From positions 1-44,295 of the forward strand of contig JAHRAZ010000044.1 in assembly GCA_020027475.1 (NCBI GenBank): 44,295 nucleotides of DNA, in the 5' to 3' direction. Below are positions 18,389 through 32,285 of this stretch, piece by piece. How positions within the stretch are numbered: the first letter of the stretch is position 1; every line of letters starts with the position of its first letter. This stretch comes from Microthrixaceae bacterium. GTDB lineage: Bacteria > Actinomycetota > Acidimicrobiia > Acidimicrobiales > Microtrichaceae. The translations under genes were made by a program, and so were the position numbers. Below the pieces are notes generated by a model. It ran no database searches and was not told where the DNA came from. It worked only from the letters and a program-made list of their open reading frames with translations.

Positions 18389-19054
18389 TCAGACTGAGAC
18401 GAGAATCCGCTCGGTGGCGAAGGACCCGATTCCGATCGTGCGCCCTTCGATCTTCACGGTGGCGGTGCCGTCCGGCGCAATGGCTGCCAATACGCCGCTG
18501 TGGCCGGGCAGGAGCGAGTTGTCCTCCAAGAAGTCGAGCATTCCGGGCGTGAACTCGAGTTCCTCCGGTATGCGGCTGACCGTGAAATCAGATCCGACGC
18601 GGAGCTCGGCCAGTGCTTTGGTGGGCGGTTCGGTGTAGTCGGCGCCGGGAATGGGATTGCCGTGCGGGCACGTTGTCGGCGCCCCGAGGACTCGGTCGAG
18701 TGCTTTCTCGACCGGGTCCGAGATCACATGTTCCCACTTGCCTGCCTCGGTGTGTGCGTCGGACCACGAGAGGCCCAACATGTCGGTGAGGAACCGCTCG
18801 GCCAGACGGTGGCGCCGCACGACTCGTTCGGCCACCTGAATTCCGGTATCACTGAGCACGATGGATCCGTTGATCGTGATCAGACCTTCGTTGGCCAGTT
18901 TGTGGATCATTTCGGAAACCGCTGGCCTCGATACCTCGAGACGGTCCGCGATCCGGGCCTGGATCACGTCGATGTCGTCTTCGCGGAGTTCCCATATCGC
19001 TTCGCAGTATTCCTCGAAAGCCGGGTGGTACTCGTTGGAGCGGGAACCAGTCAC
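18389..19054 (-). CDS. DtxR-family metal-dependent transcriptional regulator
   Basis: 221-aa regulator. The winged-helix domain (about 8-65) has IQARIADRLEVSRPAVSEMIHKLANEGLI. The metal/dimer domain follows (VVRRHRLAERFLTDMLGL, HTEAGKWEHVISDPVEKAL, CPHGNPIP), then a C-terminal SH3/FeoA-like domain ending IGIGSFATERILVSV. Ancillary-site ligands His82, Glu86 and His101 are present, and so are Glu108 and His109 (DtxR Glu105, His106). The primary-site Cys102 of DtxR/IdeR is Gly105 here, and Met10 aligns with Glu15, so the metal preference is uncertain: iron or manganese. GTG at 19054 is supported by the TACAAT hexamer 6 nt upstream. Divergent from lhr. Confidence 0.88.
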   Translation of the reverse strand: MTGSRSNEYHPAFEEYCEAIWELREDDIDVIQARIADRLEVSRPAVSEMIHKLANEGLITINGSIVLSDTGIQVAERVVRRHRLAERFLTDMLGLSWSDAHTEAGKWEHVISDPVEKALDRVLGAPTTCPHGNPIPGADYTEPPTKALAELRVGSDFTVSRIPEELEFTPGMLDFLEDNSLLPGHSGVLAAIAPDGTATVKIEGRTIGIGSFATERILVSV

Positions 19055-19094
19055 CGGCTGATTGTACGTCACAACCCGGGGGTAGAGTCGCCCC
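19055..19094. promoter_or_regulatory. Shared 40-bp divergent leaderless promoter region (dtxR / lhr)
   Basis: On the minus strand TACAAT (19066-19061) lies 6 nt before the dtxR GTG. On the plus strand TAGAGT (19083-19088) lies 6 nt before the lhr GTG. No Shine-Dalgarno fits in either gap. The expected -35 region of each gene falls on or near the -10 of the other, so one polymerase should exclude the other. Confidence 0.6.
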
Positions 19095-22000
19095 GTGAAC
19101 GGACCTCCCGATCCCCTGGGGTACTTCTCCGGCCCTGTGCGTGCATGGTTCAATTCGTCGTTCCAGCGCCCCACTGCTGCCCAATCGGAGGCCTGGGGTC
19201 CCATTTCGCGCGGTGAAAACACGCTGTTGTGCGCACCAACGGGGTCCGGCAAGACGCTTGCAGCGTTCCTCTGGGCCCTCGACTCCCTGGGCCGGAAATC
19301 GGCGGTCAGCACAACCAAGGTCCTGTACATCTCTCCGTTGCGGGCCTTGGCCGTGGACGTTGACAAGAACCTGAAGGCACCACTGCGAGGCATCGAGTTG
19401 GCGGCCCAGCGGATGGGGGAGACCTATTCGCCTCCCACGATCGGCGTGAGAACCGGTGACACGGCGGCCAATGACCGCCGGAAGCTGATCAGGCACCCGC
19501 CCGAGATACTCATCACCACTCCCGAATCCCTCTATTTGATGCTCACGTCTGCAGCGAGGGAGACCCTGCTGGGCGTCGAGACCGTGATCATCGATGAGAT
19601 CCACGCCCTGGCGTCAACGAAGCGGGGCGCTCACATGTCCCTTTCCCTGGAGAGACTGGTTGCCCTGCAAACGGCGGTGGGCGCTGGTCGGGGGTTCCAG
19701 CGAATCGGACTCTCAGCCACTCAGCGGCCTCTGGAGGTGGTGGCGGACTTTTTGGGCGGTTCCGAAATGAGCGGCGACCAGATGAAACCGCGACGGGTCA
19801 CGATCGTTGATTCTCCGCATGGCCCCGAACTCGATCTGTTGGTTGTGGTGCCGGTGGAGGACATGGCTGACCTGTCCCGCAGTCAGGCTCCGGCGGATGG
19901 CAATGCGAGCGCCTCGATCTGGCCATCGATACATCCCGAACTGCTCAACCTGGTGGAGACACACAACTCCACTCTGGTATTCGTGAACGCTCGGCGACTC
20001 TCGGAGCGCTTGGCAAGCCGGCTGAACGACCTGGCTCACCATTCGGGTGACTTCGATGCTGGTGAGTCGATGGGGTCATCGACGGCGTCCGGCACCGAAG
20101 AGCTCGTGAAGGCTCATCACGGATCACTTTCCAGGGAACGTCGGCTGCAGATCGAGGATGAACTCAAACGGGGAGACCTCCGGGGCCTCGTGGCAACCAG
20201 CAGCCTGGAGCTGGGAATCGACATGGGCGCGGTGGATCTGGTGATCCAGGTGTCCTCGCCTGGGTCGGTGGCAGCGGGATTGCAACGGATCGGGCGCGCT
20301 GGTCACCAAGTCGGTGTGCCGAGCAAAGGACGGATATTTCCCAAACACCGATCCGATCTGCTGGAGGCCGCCACGGTCACCCGGCGCATGGGCGAGGGCC
20401 TGATCGAACGCACTGCGATCCCCAGGAATCCGCTCGACGTGCTCGCGCAACAGATCGTGGCCACGGTTGCCTTGCCGCCACTTCGTTCCACGGGCAATGC
20501 AGGTGAGGGAAATGGAATCGAGGTGGCTCTCGAAGAGGAATACAACACCGATGAGCTCTACGAACTCGTTCTCCGCTCCGACAACTTCACCGAACTCACG
20601 CGGACCGTCTTTGATTCGGTTCTGGATCTGCTTGCCGGCCGCTATCCCTCCGAGGAGTTTTCCGACCTGCGTCAACGAGTGGTGTGGGATCGGGTGAGCG
20701 GGACCGTGCGCGGACGTTCCGGGGCTCAGAGGTTGGCCGTGACAAATGCAGGGACCATTGCAGATCGGGGATTGTTCGGCGTTTTCCTCCCCGACGGCAC
20801 GCGTGTGGGAGAACTCGACGAAGAGATGGTCTACGAATCGCGAGTGGGTGAGAACTTCCTGCTGGGAGCTTCCACCTGGAAGATCACTGAGATCACATTC
20901 GAGCGCGTTGTGGTGGTGCCTGCGCCGGGCCAGCCCGGCAAGATGCCGTTCTGGCACGGTGATGGACCCGGCCGCGACGCCGAACTCGGCCGCGCGGTCG
21001 GGGAGTTGGTGCGGTTCGTGCGCAGCACCCCGGCCGAAGAAGCACTGGAGTTGTTGCGCTCTGAACACCACCTGGATGAGCTGGCTGCCGCCAACCTGGT
21101 GTCCTTCATGGATGAGCAGGCCGAGGCCACCGGTGTTGTTCCCGACGATCGAACGATCGTCGTGGAAAAGTTCCGTGACGAGATCGGTGATTGGCGCATC
21201 TGCATTCACTCACCATTCGGATCTCGGGTGCATGCACCATGGGGGATCGTGCTGCGTTCTCGACTGTCGGATCATTTTGGGGGTGGAGCATCCGCAGTGG
21301 AGGTCATCTGGAGCGATGACGGGATAGTGATTCGTTTGCCGGAATCGGCGGAGGTCCTGCCACGGGACATCTTGTTCCCCGATCCCGAAGAGATCGAAGC
21401 CGAACTGGTCACCACCTTGCCCACCACTTCAGCCTTCGCGTCACGATTCCGCGAGTGTTCCGCTCGTGCTCTGCTGCTTCCGCGCAGGCGACCGAATGAA
21501 CGGACACCGCTCTGGCAACAACGCCAGCGGGCTGCCGACCTGCTTTCGGTGGCATCGAGGTACCCCAGCTTCCCGATGCTTCTCGAGACCACTCGGGAAA
21601 TGTGCAATGACGTATTCGATCTGCCCGCCCTGAAGCAGGTTCTCTCGGAGGTGCGCAGCCGCAAGATCCGCTCAGTCGAGGTCCAGACACAATCAGCCTC
21701 TCCTTTCGCCCGCTCGCTCCTGTTCGGGTGGGTTGCCGTATACATGTATGAGGGCGACGCTCCGCTTGCCGAGCGTCGGGCAGCGGCTTTGTCGCTCGAC
21801 CGCGAGTTGCTCCGGGAACTTCTCGGAAACGAGGAACTCCGTTCACTTCTCGATGCCGATGTGCTGGCCACAGCGGAGCTGGAACTCCAGCGTCTGGTCG
21901 AGTCGCGTTCGGCCCGGGACGCGGATGAGTTGCTCGACATACTGCGCGCCATCGGGCCTCTGAGTCATGCGGAAACCCTTGCCAGAGTGGAACAGAACTC

Positions 22001-23732
22001 GGTGGCCATGGCCGAATCCTGGATTCGGGATCTGGTGGCGAATCGCCGGGTGATCGAGGTCGGCGTGGCTGGAGAGCCTCGCCTGGGCGCCGCGGAGGAC
22101 GCTGGACGATTGCGCGATGCACTCGGGGCGCATATCCCCATTGGTTTGCCGGCGGCCTTCACCGAGTCCGTGGATCACCCGATCCAGGATCTCCTGTTGC
22201 GCTACGCGCGCACCCACGGCCCGTTCACAACAGATCAGGCAAGTCGGCGATATGGACTGCCCCGCGACCTGGTGGCGGAGATGTTGCGCGCAATGGAGTT
22301 TGCCGGTGTCGTCTCCGAAGGTGAGTTCACTCCCAACGGAACCAGCATCGAATGGTGTGAGGCCGACGTTCTTCGAATGCTTCGCAGGCGTTCACTGGCC
22401 GCTCTGCGCAAAGAAGTCGAACCGGTCGAAAGTGTTGCGCTCGCCCGTTTCCTGCCCGGTTGGCAGGGGATCGGGGGGCGCCACCGGGGCCCTGACGCCG
22501 TGGCCGAGGCGCTGGGAGTGCTCCAGGGTGCATCCGTTCCGGCATCGACTCTCGAGCCGGACGTCTTGGGCCTGCGAGTCCGCGACTACAGCCCGGGTGA
22601 CCTCGATCAGTTGTGCCAGAGCGGTGAAGTCGTCTGGCTCGGTGCGGGCAGCATCGGGGGCACCGATGGCCGCGTACGGCTGGTGTTCTCCGATCAGGTG
22701 GCCACGCTGCTGGATCCCCCCACCTCCGACGACTTCATTGATTCCCACCACCGGGTGCTTCTGGATCATCTCGAATCCAGTGGCGCATCCTTCTGGCCGG
22801 ATCTCCGGGCTGCGGTGGCCGCGGCCGGTTTGCCCACCGAGTCCGAGGTGATTCTTGCAGCTCTCTGGGATCTTGTTTGGGCGGGACTTGTGAGCAACGA
22901 CACGATCGCCCCTCTGCGGGCCTTGGTGACGGCGGGACTCAAACGGCGTTCCTCGGGAGCACGTTCGCGGCGGCCCGACCTGCGGCGTTTGAGTCGTAGC
23001 GGTCCCCCGGCAGCAGTGGGTCGCTGGGCACTCACGGCTTCGCTGTTCGCTCGCCCGCCCAGCCCCACCGAGGCCACGATGGCCAGGGCAATGCAGCTCC
23101 TTGAGAGGTACGGAATCCTCACGCGCGAGATGGCCCTGGCAGAGGGCATCGAAGGTGGGTTCGCCGGAGTGTATCCAATGCTGAAACTTCTCGAGGAGCG
23201 GGGACAGGTCCGCCGCGGCTACTTCGTGGAGGGCCTTGGCGCCGCACAGTTCGCCCTGGCCGGTGCCGTTGATCGGCTTCGCTCCTTCGGTCTTGACCCG
23301 TTGGACGGCGCGAGCGAGGTGGGCGGTGTGGTGATCGAGAGGATGCCGTGGGAGCCAGTGCCGGAAGCGGCCGACGACCTGAAGTTTGTCGTGTTGGCGG
23401 CTACCGATCCGGCGCAACCGTGGGGAGCAGCAATCGACTGGCCCGAATCCTGCGGACACCCGAGCAGGTCGGCCGGTGCTTACGTGATCGCAGTGGGAGG
23501 CAGGGCATGCGCTTACCTGGAGAGGGGTGGTCGTTCCCTACTGACTTTCCCCGCTGCTGCGGACCATCCCGGTTGGGTACAGGCCCTCGCCGACCTGGTG
23601 AGCGCGGCAAGGGTGCGTCGCTTGAGGGTGGAGAAAATCGACGGTGAATCAGCCCGCTCATCCGATTGGGCGGCGAACCTCCTGTCGGTTGGTTTCAGCG
23701 ACGGTTACAAGGGTCTCGCACTCGACTCCTGA
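19095..23732 (+). CDS. lhr: Lhr-family superfamily 2 DNA helicase (long form)
   Basis: 1545-aa ATP-dependent helicase; E. coli Lhr is 1538 aa and the mycobacterial form about 1500, so this is the full-length type. The Lhr-Core holds Walker A CAPTGSGKT (46-54), LYISPLRALAVDVDKNL, DEIH (167-170), SATQRP, VFVNARRLSERLASRL, SLELGIDMGAVDLVIQ and the Q-R-I-G-R-A-G-H motif VI. Winged-helix and beta-barrel parts follow, and a large C-terminal half (beyond about 860) corresponds to the Lhr-CTD. It translocates 3' to 5' and unwinds RNA:DNA hybrids, with a role in DNA repair, notably after mitomycin C in mycobacteria. GTG 19095 is supported by TAGAGT 6 nt upstream. Ends 84 bp before the SDR gene. Confidence 0.93.
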   Translation: MNGPPDPLGYFSGPVRAWFNSSFQRPTAAQSEAWGPISRGENTLLCAPTGSGKTLAAFLWALDSLGRKSAVSTTKVLYISPLRALAVDVDKNLKAPLRGIELAAQRMGETYSPPTIGVRTGDTAANDRRKLIRHPPEILITTPESLYLMLTSAARETLLGVETVIIDEIHALASTKRGAHMSLSLERLVALQTAVGAGRGFQRIGLSATQRPLEVVADFLGGSEMSGDQMKPRRVTIVDSPHGPELDLLVVVPVEDMADLSRSQAPADGNASASIWPSIHPELLNLVETHNSTLVFVNARRLSERLASRLNDLAHHSGDFDAGESMGSSTASGTEELVKAHHGSLSRERRLQIEDELKRGDLRGLVATSSLELGIDMGAVDLVIQVSSPGSVAAGLQRIGRAGHQVGVPSKGRIFPKHRSDLLEAATVTRRMGEGLIERTAIPRNPLDVLAQQIVATVALPPLRSTGNAGEGNGIEVALEEEYNTDELYELVLRSDNFTELTRTVFDSVLDLLAGRYPSEEFSDLRQRVVWDRVSGTVRGRSGAQRLAVTNAGTIADRGLFGVFLPDGTRVGELDEEMVYESRVGENFLLGASTWKITEITFERVVVVPAPGQPGKMPFWHGDGPGRDAELGRAVGELVRFVRSTPAEEALELLRSEHHLDELAAANLVSFMDEQAEATGVVPDDRTIVVEKFRDEIGDWRICIHSPFGSRVHAPWGIVLRSRLSDHFGGGASAVEVIWSDDGIVIRLPESAEVLPRDILFPDPEEIEAELVTTLPTTSAFASRFRECSARALLLPRRRPNERTPLWQQRQRAADLLSVASRYPSFPMLLETTREMCNDVFDLPALKQVLSEVRSRKIRSVEVQTQSASPFARSLLFGWVAVYMYEGDAPLAERRAAALSLDRELLRELLGNEELRSLLDADVLATAELELQRLVESRSARDADELLDILRAIGPLSHAETLARVEQNSVAMAESWIRDLVANRRVIEVGVAGEPRLGAAEDAGRLRDALGAHIPIGLPAAFTESVDHPIQDLLLRYARTHGPFTTDQASRRYGLPRDLVAEMLRAMEFAGVVSEGEFTPNGTSIEWCEADVLRMLRRRSLAALRKEVEPVESVALARFLPGWQGIGGRHRGPDAVAEALGVLQGASVPASTLEPDVLGLRVRDYSPGDLDQLCQSGEVVWLGAGSIGGTDGRVRLVFSDQVATLLDPPTSDDFIDSHHRVLLDHLESSGASFWPDLRAAVAAAGLPTESEVILAALWDLVWAGLVSNDTIAPLRALVTAGLKRRSSGARSRRPDLRRLSRSGPPAAVGRWALTASLFARPPSPTEATMARAMQLLERYGILTREMALAEGIEGGFAGVYPMLKLLEERGQVRRGYFVEGLGAAQFALAGAVDRLRSFGLDPLDGASEVGGVVIERMPWEPVPEAADDLKFVVLAATDPAQPWGAAIDWPESCGHPSRSAGAYVIAVGGRACAYLERGGRSLLTFPAAADHPGWVQALADLVSAARVRRLRVEKIDGESARSSDWAANLLSVGFSDGYKGLALDS

Positions 23733-23744
23733 GGGTTCCGGCGT

Positions 23745-23750
23745 TAGTTT
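23745..23750 (+). promoter_or_regulatory. Candidate -10 of SDR gene
   Basis: TAGTTT fits TAnnnT; the predicted transcription start near 23757-23760 falls directly at the edge of the palindrome, as expected for a repressor operator. Confidence 0.35.
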
Positions 23751-23760
23751 GGGCGCTGCC

Positions 23761-23784
23761 ATGACTGGACACGTGTCCAGTCAT
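23761..23784. promoter_or_regulatory. Perfect 24-bp palindrome, probable repressor operator
   Basis: The half-site ATGACTGGACAC is followed directly by its exact reverse complement, with CACGTG at the centre. All 12 base pairs match with no spacer. It lies 32 bp upstream of the SDR start codon and just after a -10-like hexamer. Length and symmetry are typical of TetR-family operators; no TetR gene is in the window, so the binding protein is unknown. Confidence 0.65.
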
Positions 23785-23816
23785 GATCTGTTGGTCGTTT
23801 CAGAAGGGCACAAGCT

Positions 23817-24659
23817 ATGGATCGAAATCGTCGTTTTGAGGGGAAAGTCATATTTGTCTCGGGTGCGGCCCGAGGCCAGGGACGCTCACATGCTGTGGCG
23901 TTTGCACGCGAGGGCGCCCAGGTGATCGGGACCGACCTTTGTGAGGATCTGGAACACGCTCCCTACCCGGCCGCCACGCGGGAGGACCTTGACGAAACCG
24001 TTCGTATGGTGGAGTCCGCCGGTGGAGCAATGCACGCCGAGGTGGCAGATGTCCGCGAATACCGAGACACGCGTGACGCCCTGTTGCGGGGAGTGGAGCG
24101 GTTCGGCCGCCTGGATGTGATCCTCGCCAACGCCGGGACGTATGCACCCATGCCGGTGCAGTTCGTGGACGTCGAGTCGTGGGCGGAGACCATCGACATC
24201 AACCTCACAGGTGTGTTCAACACGGTGAAGGCCGGCATCCGCACGATGATCGAACAGAACGAAGGCGGCGCCATCGTGATGACATCCTCCACCGCCGGAC
24301 TCAAGGGCTTCTACGGTGCGCCCGCATACAATGCCGGCAAACATGGGGTGGTCGGCCTCATGCGCTCATTGGCCCTGGAATTGGCACCGAACCAGATCCG
24401 AGTGAACTCGGTTCACCCCACCTCGGTGAACACTCCGATGATCATCAACGACGTGTTCCCGAATCTCTTGCGCATGGACCTCGGAGGCAAGGCCACAGTG
24501 GAGGACTCAGCGGAGTTCCTGCGCGAACAGCAGCCGATGGACATACCGTGGATCGAGGCCGAGGACGTGAGCAATGCGATCCTGTGGCTGTGCAGCGACG
24601 AAGCACGTTACGTCACCGGAGTGACGCTCCCCGTCGACGCCGGTGCCTTGCTGAAGTAG
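23817..24659 (+). CDS. Mycofactocin-type short-chain dehydrogenase/reductase
   Basis: 280-aa SDR. The N-terminal cofactor motif is VSGAARGQGRSHAVAFAREGA. The following insertion, DLCEDLEHAPYPAATREDLDETVRMVE, is the feature that marks SDRs with non-exchangeable NAD(P) recycled by mycofactocin; NAG is in VILANAGTYAP. The catalytic Ser is in MTSSTAGLKG, with Tyr and Lys in PAYNAGKHG. The C-terminus is CSDEARYVTGVTLPVDAGALLK. The substrate is probably an alcohol, sterol or terpenoid carbinol, but cannot be named. No mft genes are in the window, so cofactor use is inferred from family. ATG 23817 lacks a strong ribosome site. The SDR stop codon lies in the first unit of a short tandem repeat. Confidence 0.85.
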   Translation: MDRNRRFEGKVIFVSGAARGQGRSHAVAFAREGAQVIGTDLCEDLEHAPYPAATREDLDETVRMVESAGGAMHAEVADVREYRDTRDALLRGVERFGRLDVILANAGTYAPMPVQFVDVESWAETIDINLTGVFNTVKAGIRTMIEQNEGGAIVMTSSTAGLKGFYGAPAYNAGKHGVVGLMRSLALELAPNQIRVNSVHPTSVNTPMIINDVFPNLLRMDLGGKATVEDSAEFLREQQPMDIPWIEAEDVSNAILWLCSDEARYVTGVTLPVDAGALLK

Positions 24660-31700: not shown

Positions 31701-31760
31701 GTGCTAACTGATGTAAGCATATGTGTTGACACCGCGAGCAGTGCTTGCTATAGTTAGCAC
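31701..31760. promoter_or_regulatory. Inverted repeat flanking the phasin-like promoter
   Basis: GTGCTAACT at 31701-31709 recurs inverted at 31752-31760 (AGTTAGCAC). Five bases further in from each, AAGCA/TGCTT also matches (31715-31719 and 31742-31746), giving 14 of 19 matching positions. The right arm overlaps the -10 and start of transcription; the left arm is upstream of the -35. This looks like a pair of regulator-binding sites that could loop over the promoter. Confidence 0.55.
31726..31754 (+). promoter_or_regulatory. Near-consensus housekeeping promoter of the phasin-like gene
   Basis: TTGACA (31726-31731), 17-bp spacer, TATAGT (31749-31754). This is the best sigma-70-type promoter in the window and predicts strong expression of the gene at 31816. 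Confidence 0.85.
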
Positions 31761-32249: not shown

Positions 32250-32285
32250 GCGAAGATGGAGAACCTCAGGGTTCTCCATCTTCGC
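32250..32285. terminator. Strong hairpin terminator, possibly bidirectional
   Basis: A perfect 16-bp stem, GCGAAGATGGAGAACC (32250-32265) paired with 32270-32285, closes on a 4-nt loop. It lies between the convergent phasin-like gene (stop 32160) and the acyltransferase gene (stop 32325). There is only a short T stretch after it (GTTTG), so it is I-shaped or weakly intrinsic in the plus direction. Confidence 0.8.

Follow-up and report, generated by a model that had tools for sequence, protein, structure and literature searches.

The window, by which we mean the whole 44,295-nt stretch of Microthrixaceae DNA analysed here, contains a gene for an Lhr-type helicase and, 84 bp beyond its end, a gene for a mycofactocin-coupled SDR. 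The two genes and the elements identified between them are as follows.

19095-23732, + strand: Lhr-type ATP-dependent helicase (PRK09751, 1354 bits, under the curated cut-off of 1496)
23745-23750, + strand: -10-like hexamer TAGTTT (TANNNT), read from the sequence, a putative promoter element
23760-23785, no strand: perfect spacer-free palindrome CATGACTGGACACGTGTCCAGTCATG, a predicted TetR operator (from the sequence, the chance estimate, the second copy and the PWM)
23765-23780: 16-bp core of the predicted operator, CTGGACACGTGTCCAG
23802-23808, + strand: Shine-Dalgarno sequence AGAAGGG, read from the sequence
23817-24659, + strand: mycofactocin-coupled SDR (carveol-dehydrogenase-like), 280 aa, the predicted regulated gene (TIGR03971)

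The helicase gene (lhr) is regarded as an upstream neighbour and is not thought to be a member of the regulon. A gene for a DtxR/MntR-like regulator is located at window positions 18389-19393 on the minus strand and scores 140 bits on the actinobacterial DtxR model, the cut-off of which is 290; as called, this reading frame overlaps the start of lhr, so that its true start probably lies further downstream.

The sequence-only reading had described a perfect 24-bp palindrome between a -10-like hexamer and the start codon of a mycofactocin-type SDR gene, and all three elements were recovered. The 24-mer ATGACTGGACAC|GTGTCCAGTCAT is present at 23761-23784, and its dyad symmetry runs one base further on each side, which gives a true extent of 26 bp (23760-23785) without a spacer, 27 bp past the lhr stop codon and 31 bp ahead of the SDR ATG. 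The arms are 13 bp long, compared with 8 bp for the next longest zero-spacer palindrome in the window and a maximum of 10 bp in 60 first-order Markov windows. Spacer-free arms of at least 13 bp are expected 0.0013 times per window and 0.09 times per 2.84-Mb genome, and the 26-bp dyad is far beyond chance. Two spaced inverted repeats also occur in the window, namely a perfect 16-bp repeat with a 4-base loop at 32250-32285 (GCGAAGATGGAGAACC / GGTTCTCCATCTTCGC) and an A+T-rich 19-bp repeat (79%) with a 22-bp spacer at 31701-31760 (GTGCTAACTGATGTAAGCA / TGCTTGCTATAGTTAGCAC).

The hexamer TAGTTT lies upstream of the dyad and would set the start of transcription near 23757, so that the dyad would span roughly +4 to +29. 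A scan found no consensus sigma-70 promoter. With a TIGR03971 score of 365.4 bits (cut-off 300), the downstream gene product passes as a mycofactocin-coupled SDR, and the closest solved structures are labelled 'carveol dehydrogenase' (5ej2 and 3uve). The genome also encodes MftC (587.8 bits, cut-off 265), so that mycofactocin is probably made and could plausibly serve the SDR as acceptor.

As the dyad follows lhr so closely, it might instead work in RNA, either as a terminator hairpin of lhr or as a hairpin in the 5'-UTR of the SDR mRNA. Its RNA would form an 11-pair stem with a 4-nt loop, and the 98-nt leader is predicted to fold at -38.2 kcal/mol (z -3.2). However, the tail behind the hairpin is ATCTGTTGG, without a T-run, the terminator scan makes no call there, and Rfam gives no match; an intrinsic terminator or riboregulator was therefore rejected. 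Moreover, many orthologous lhr-SDR junctions lack the dyad, and the letters of the core, beyond what pairing alone would ask for, match a TetR operator found elsewhere, which makes a function in RNA very improbable.

The reading of the dyad as a DNA operator is based on its second copy in the genome. The sequence-only reading had assigned the site to a regulon with a distant, possibly TetR-like repressor, against which the lack of a second copy would have counted, and the whole 2.84-Mb assembly supports this assignment. A search with ACTGGACACGTGTCCAGT, allowing up to 3 mismatches over 18 bp, returned a single other match, TCTGGACACATGTCCAGT (C17:27072-27089, 2 mismatches in 18), which is located on another contig directly upstream of a TetR-family gene, 27 bp ahead of its start (214 aa, G000:C17:27116-27757). 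This unlinked TetR gene thus carries the only other genomic site. A genome-wide search with the 14-mer core and 2 mismatches gave five further matches, as many as the reversed-pattern control gave (5), and these were not counted as sites. In a PWM built from the TetR operators of relatives, the window dyad scores 27.3 (maximum 29.7) and ranks second among 80,627 scored positions, exceeded only by the copy at the TetR gene.

The TetR gene heads an operon in the order TetR-P450-SDR-CYP51-ferredoxin-SnoaL-AldDH-HIBDH (L010), HIBDH being a 3-hydroxyisobutyrate-dehydrogenase-like protein; the smaller genes were named from sequence and synteny. The second P450 of the operon is CYP51, which matches the M. 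tuberculosis CYP51 structure 1e9x (Rv0764c) with 629 bits. By adjoining genes for a P450, an SDR, CYP51 and a ferredoxin, the TetR gene conforms to the CYP51-cluster type. The palindromic site is common to the TetR gene and the unlinked SDR gene, its two places in the genome, and the motif is also found at mycobacterial TetR-aldA regions. Taken together, the dyad is most probably an operator of the CYP51-cluster TetR, which would draw the mycofactocin SDR into the TetR regulon.

Among 148 relatives searched, homologues of this TetR were detected in 34 (E <=1e-20) and the exact CTGGACANNTGTCCAG in 28; 26 genomes have both and 112 have neither, while the TetR occurs alone in 8 and the motif alone in 2. 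The co-occurrence is strong (Fisher p ~1e-19, uncorrected for relatedness and shared ancestry), with the motif held by only 2 of the 114 relatives that lack the TetR, and reversed-pattern controls match in 3 genomes. The sites in G070 and G116, which lie near a pilin-like gene, were taken as chance or unrelated matches, as the TetR is absent and no fitting gene start is found among the listed reading frames. Conservation of the motif was confirmed at TetR genes across the order and the phylum: CTGGACANNTGTCCAG recurs before homologous TetR genes in Acidimicrobiales, Actinomadura, Nonomuraea and mycobacteria, and among the 27 TetR homologues examined (window genome and relatives) 26 have it upstream, with 2 mismatches or fewer. 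A TANNNT hexamer with variable middle three bases ends exactly where CTGG starts in 23 of the 26 motif-bearing upstream regions, and TANNNT was found at none of the other offsets from 1 to 8 in these regions. An abutting hexamer of this kind would look like a -10 box with an operator placed over the transcription start.

In Actinomadura, Nonomuraea, Planomonospora, Planobispora, Rhodococcus, Mycolicibacterium and others, the motif stands ahead of a TetR-P450-SDR-CYP51-Fdx-SnoaL operon, either exact or with 1-2 mismatches, and the aldehyde-dehydrogenase operon of the named genomes is often preceded by the same motif as well. In mycobacteria, CTGGACANNTGTCCAG is located between the CYP51-cluster TetR and a divergent aldA, again exact or with 1-2 mismatches. 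In some relatives the TetR gene is preceded by a pair of operator-like palindromes with a distance of about 23 bp, an arrangement that may allow cooperative binding (L043 about 2050-2090, L044 about 1472-1510 and L045 about 2050-2091, in G010, G006 and G023, respectively). A metagenome bin labelled Bifidobacterium breve (L174) has this acidimicrobial TetR/CYP51 operon on a contig equal in length (14628) to G027:C39; its label is probably wrong.

At the SDR gene itself, the site is retained in four genomes, i.e. the window genome (G000), G001 (SDR 94% identical), G016 (81%) and G015 (76%), with 14, 14, 13 and 15 bp, respectively, between TANNNT and the operator core. The outer arms differ between the window genome (ATGAC/GTCAT) and its congener G001 (ATAAT/GTTAT), remaining complementary except at one arm base, and the core is unchanged; these symmetric changes in the flanks preserve the dyad. 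G001 also has AGGAGGG where the window genome has the Shine-Dalgarno sequence AGAAGGG. The other SDR orthologues examined in the family (genera g2, g3, g4, g5, g7, g9, g11 and g14) have no good site within 300 bp upstream, so that conservation before orthologous SDR genes, a check set by the sequence-only reading, held for G001, G016 and G015 and failed for most orthologues in the family. Such absence would suit a functionless chance sequence or the remnant of a mobile repeat. This explanation is nevertheless extremely unlikely, given the expectation of 0.0013 per window, a core that is the same as the TetR operator, the persistence of the dyad through symmetric changes in G001, its presence in G016 and G015, and the restriction of the genome to two copies at up to 3 mismatches over 18 bp. 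Rather, the absence of the site from most orthologues points to the SDR as an optional, lineage-restricted member of the TetR regulon and not a core target. Where the site is missing, the SDR start is often only 2-60 bp from the end of the upstream reading frame, and with such short gaps co-transcription with lhr would be possible. In Rhodococcus, another TIGR03971 SDR (343-349 bits) is encoded within the TetR/CYP51 cluster, preceded by a related site with two mismatches, suggesting that this regulator and mycofactocin SDRs have become paired on more than one occasion.

Since the target is a mycofactocin-coupled SDR, the dyad might alternatively be the operator of another regulator, for example the mycofactocin TetR MftR, a repressor with a link to mycofactocin biology such as is proposed for the TetR considered here, or the product of the DtxR-like gene at 18389-19393, about 4.4 kb upstream; operators can also be common to several TetRs. 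However, footprinting in M. smegmatis defined a different operator for MftR (TCCATTCTGGCACTCGATGCCATATAT, with the palindrome T-N2-GGCA-N5-TGCC-N2-A; PMC8728441), and this palindrome is missing from the window core CTGGACACGTGTCCAG. Furthermore, the only other genomic copy of the site precedes the CYP51-cluster TetR, which reaches 27 bits on the MftR model TIGR03968 (cut-off 225). An MftR operator was rejected on both grounds, the differing sequence and the failure of the TetR on the MftR model, and control by any regulator other than the CYP51-cluster TetR is considered unlikely.

The closest known counterpart of the proposed TetR regulon is that of Rv0767c / G155_05115, the TetR of the mycobacterial cyp51-cyp123 locus, in which the TetR adjoins a CYP123-like P450, an SDR, CYP51 and a ferredoxin, an autoregulatory palindrome ('motif X') is present, and P450s, SDRs, and alcohol and aldehyde dehydrogenases are members (PMC6593523, PMC4482099). 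In Mycobacterium sp. VKM Ac-1817D, motif X, which was matched to the site of Rv0767c, is adjacent to 14 operons, 12 of which are induced more than 3-fold by phytosterol (PMC6593523). We likened motif X to CTGGACANNTGTCCAG through mycobacterial genomes and not through the printed letters of the motif. When M. tuberculosis is exposed to p-hydroxybenzaldehyde, Rv0767c decreases along with the adjacent genes (PMC10470581), a pattern compatible with joint control but no demonstration of repression. The operon position of Rv0767c is as in the window genome, whereas the window-genome TetR is only ~38-42% identical to the mycobacterial CYP51-cluster TetRs, which the tree sets on a separate branch. The extra target in the window genome, the unlinked mycofactocin SDR behind lhr, is a further difference from the motif X regulon. 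The site at the SDR would add a new target to a type of switch that is itself already known.

Mycobacteria also encode another TetR, not beside CYP51, that is closer to the window-genome TetR than the CYP51-cluster one, and a second conserved exact mycobacterial site (GTCTGGACACATGTCCAGAG/C) lies about 4 kb from this paralogue (L148 6118, L151 6093, L175 6149 and L177 6195).

Among characterised regulators, the cholesterol-catabolism TetR KstR is the best relative of the window-genome TetR by solved structure and NCBIfam and shares a steroid context, but the score of 57.5 bits is far under the KstR cut-off of 280 bits, and the KstR operator, with the consensus TNNAACNNGTTNNA, differs. EilR, a TetR of Enterobacter lignolyticus, was crystallised with its operator eilO on the oligonucleotide AAAAAGTTGGACACGTGTCCAACTTTCC, the 14-bp centre of which, TGGACACGTGTCCA, is identical to that of the window dyad (PMC6127294), which demonstrates binding of TetR dimers to a dyad of this type. 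EilR differs in its operator flanks, its efflux-pump regulon and its gammaproteobacterial host, and the likeness of the operators is probably convergent.

We hypothesize that a dimer of the CYP51-cluster TetR occupies CTGGACANNTGTCCAG at both promoters. At its own promoter, where the operator abuts the -10 box, bound TetR would cover the -10 box and the transcription start and block RNA polymerase, thereby autorepressing the TetR-P450-SDR-CYP51-ferredoxin-SnoaL-AldDH-HIBDH operon. At the SDR promoter, with the operator just past the predicted start (about +4 to +29), the bound dimer would stop transcription at initiation or early in elongation. TetR would be freed from the DNA by a hydrophobic ligand, most likely a sterol or other terpenoid in view of CYP51 in the operon, KstR as the nearest characterised relative and the phytosterol-induced motif X operons assigned to the Rv0767c homologue in Mycobacterium sp. 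VKM Ac-1817D (PMC6593523). Release of TetR would induce the P450 operon jointly with the mycofactocin-coupled alcohol dehydrogenase, so that alcohols made by the P450s could be oxidised.

Acidimicrobial lineages may have recruited an unlinked mycofactocin-dependent alcohol dehydrogenase to the TetR/CYP51 regulon through acquisition of an operator and a promoter behind lhr, a scenario that we put forward tentatively, at somewhat less than even chances. If it is true, mycofactocin would be the electron acceptor for an alcohol from a bacterial CYP51/CYP123-like pathway. Bacterial CYP51 clusters are widespread in Actinomycetota, and the role of CYP51 in mycobacteria has been described as unclear (PMC6469627). 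An operator common to the CYP51-cluster TetR and the SDR would tie the cluster to mycofactocin redox chemistry and to a probable inducer of the sterol or terpenoid class in a concrete and testable way, and regulons of the motif X kind would then reach beyond mycobacteria to Acidimicrobiales and Streptosporangiales.

Additional exact copies of CTGGACANNTGTCCAG in relatives mark possible further regulon members, the genes of which were named solely from their sequences. These sites precede an adenylate-cyclase-like gene (L184 2059, G037:C31:46558), a dihydrodipicolinate-reductase-like gene followed by one for a Rieske-like protein (L185 2040, G037:C42:6639), and a gene for an ABC substrate-binding-like protein with a divergent LLM-type oxidoreductase (L186 2127, G010:C15:21126). 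In Mycolicibacterium wolinskyi, two operator-like sites (L216 6692 and 6844) are located at a divergent TetR-like gene and a gene for a ferredoxin/ferredoxin-NADP-reductase-like fusion protein, a possible redox partner of the P450s.
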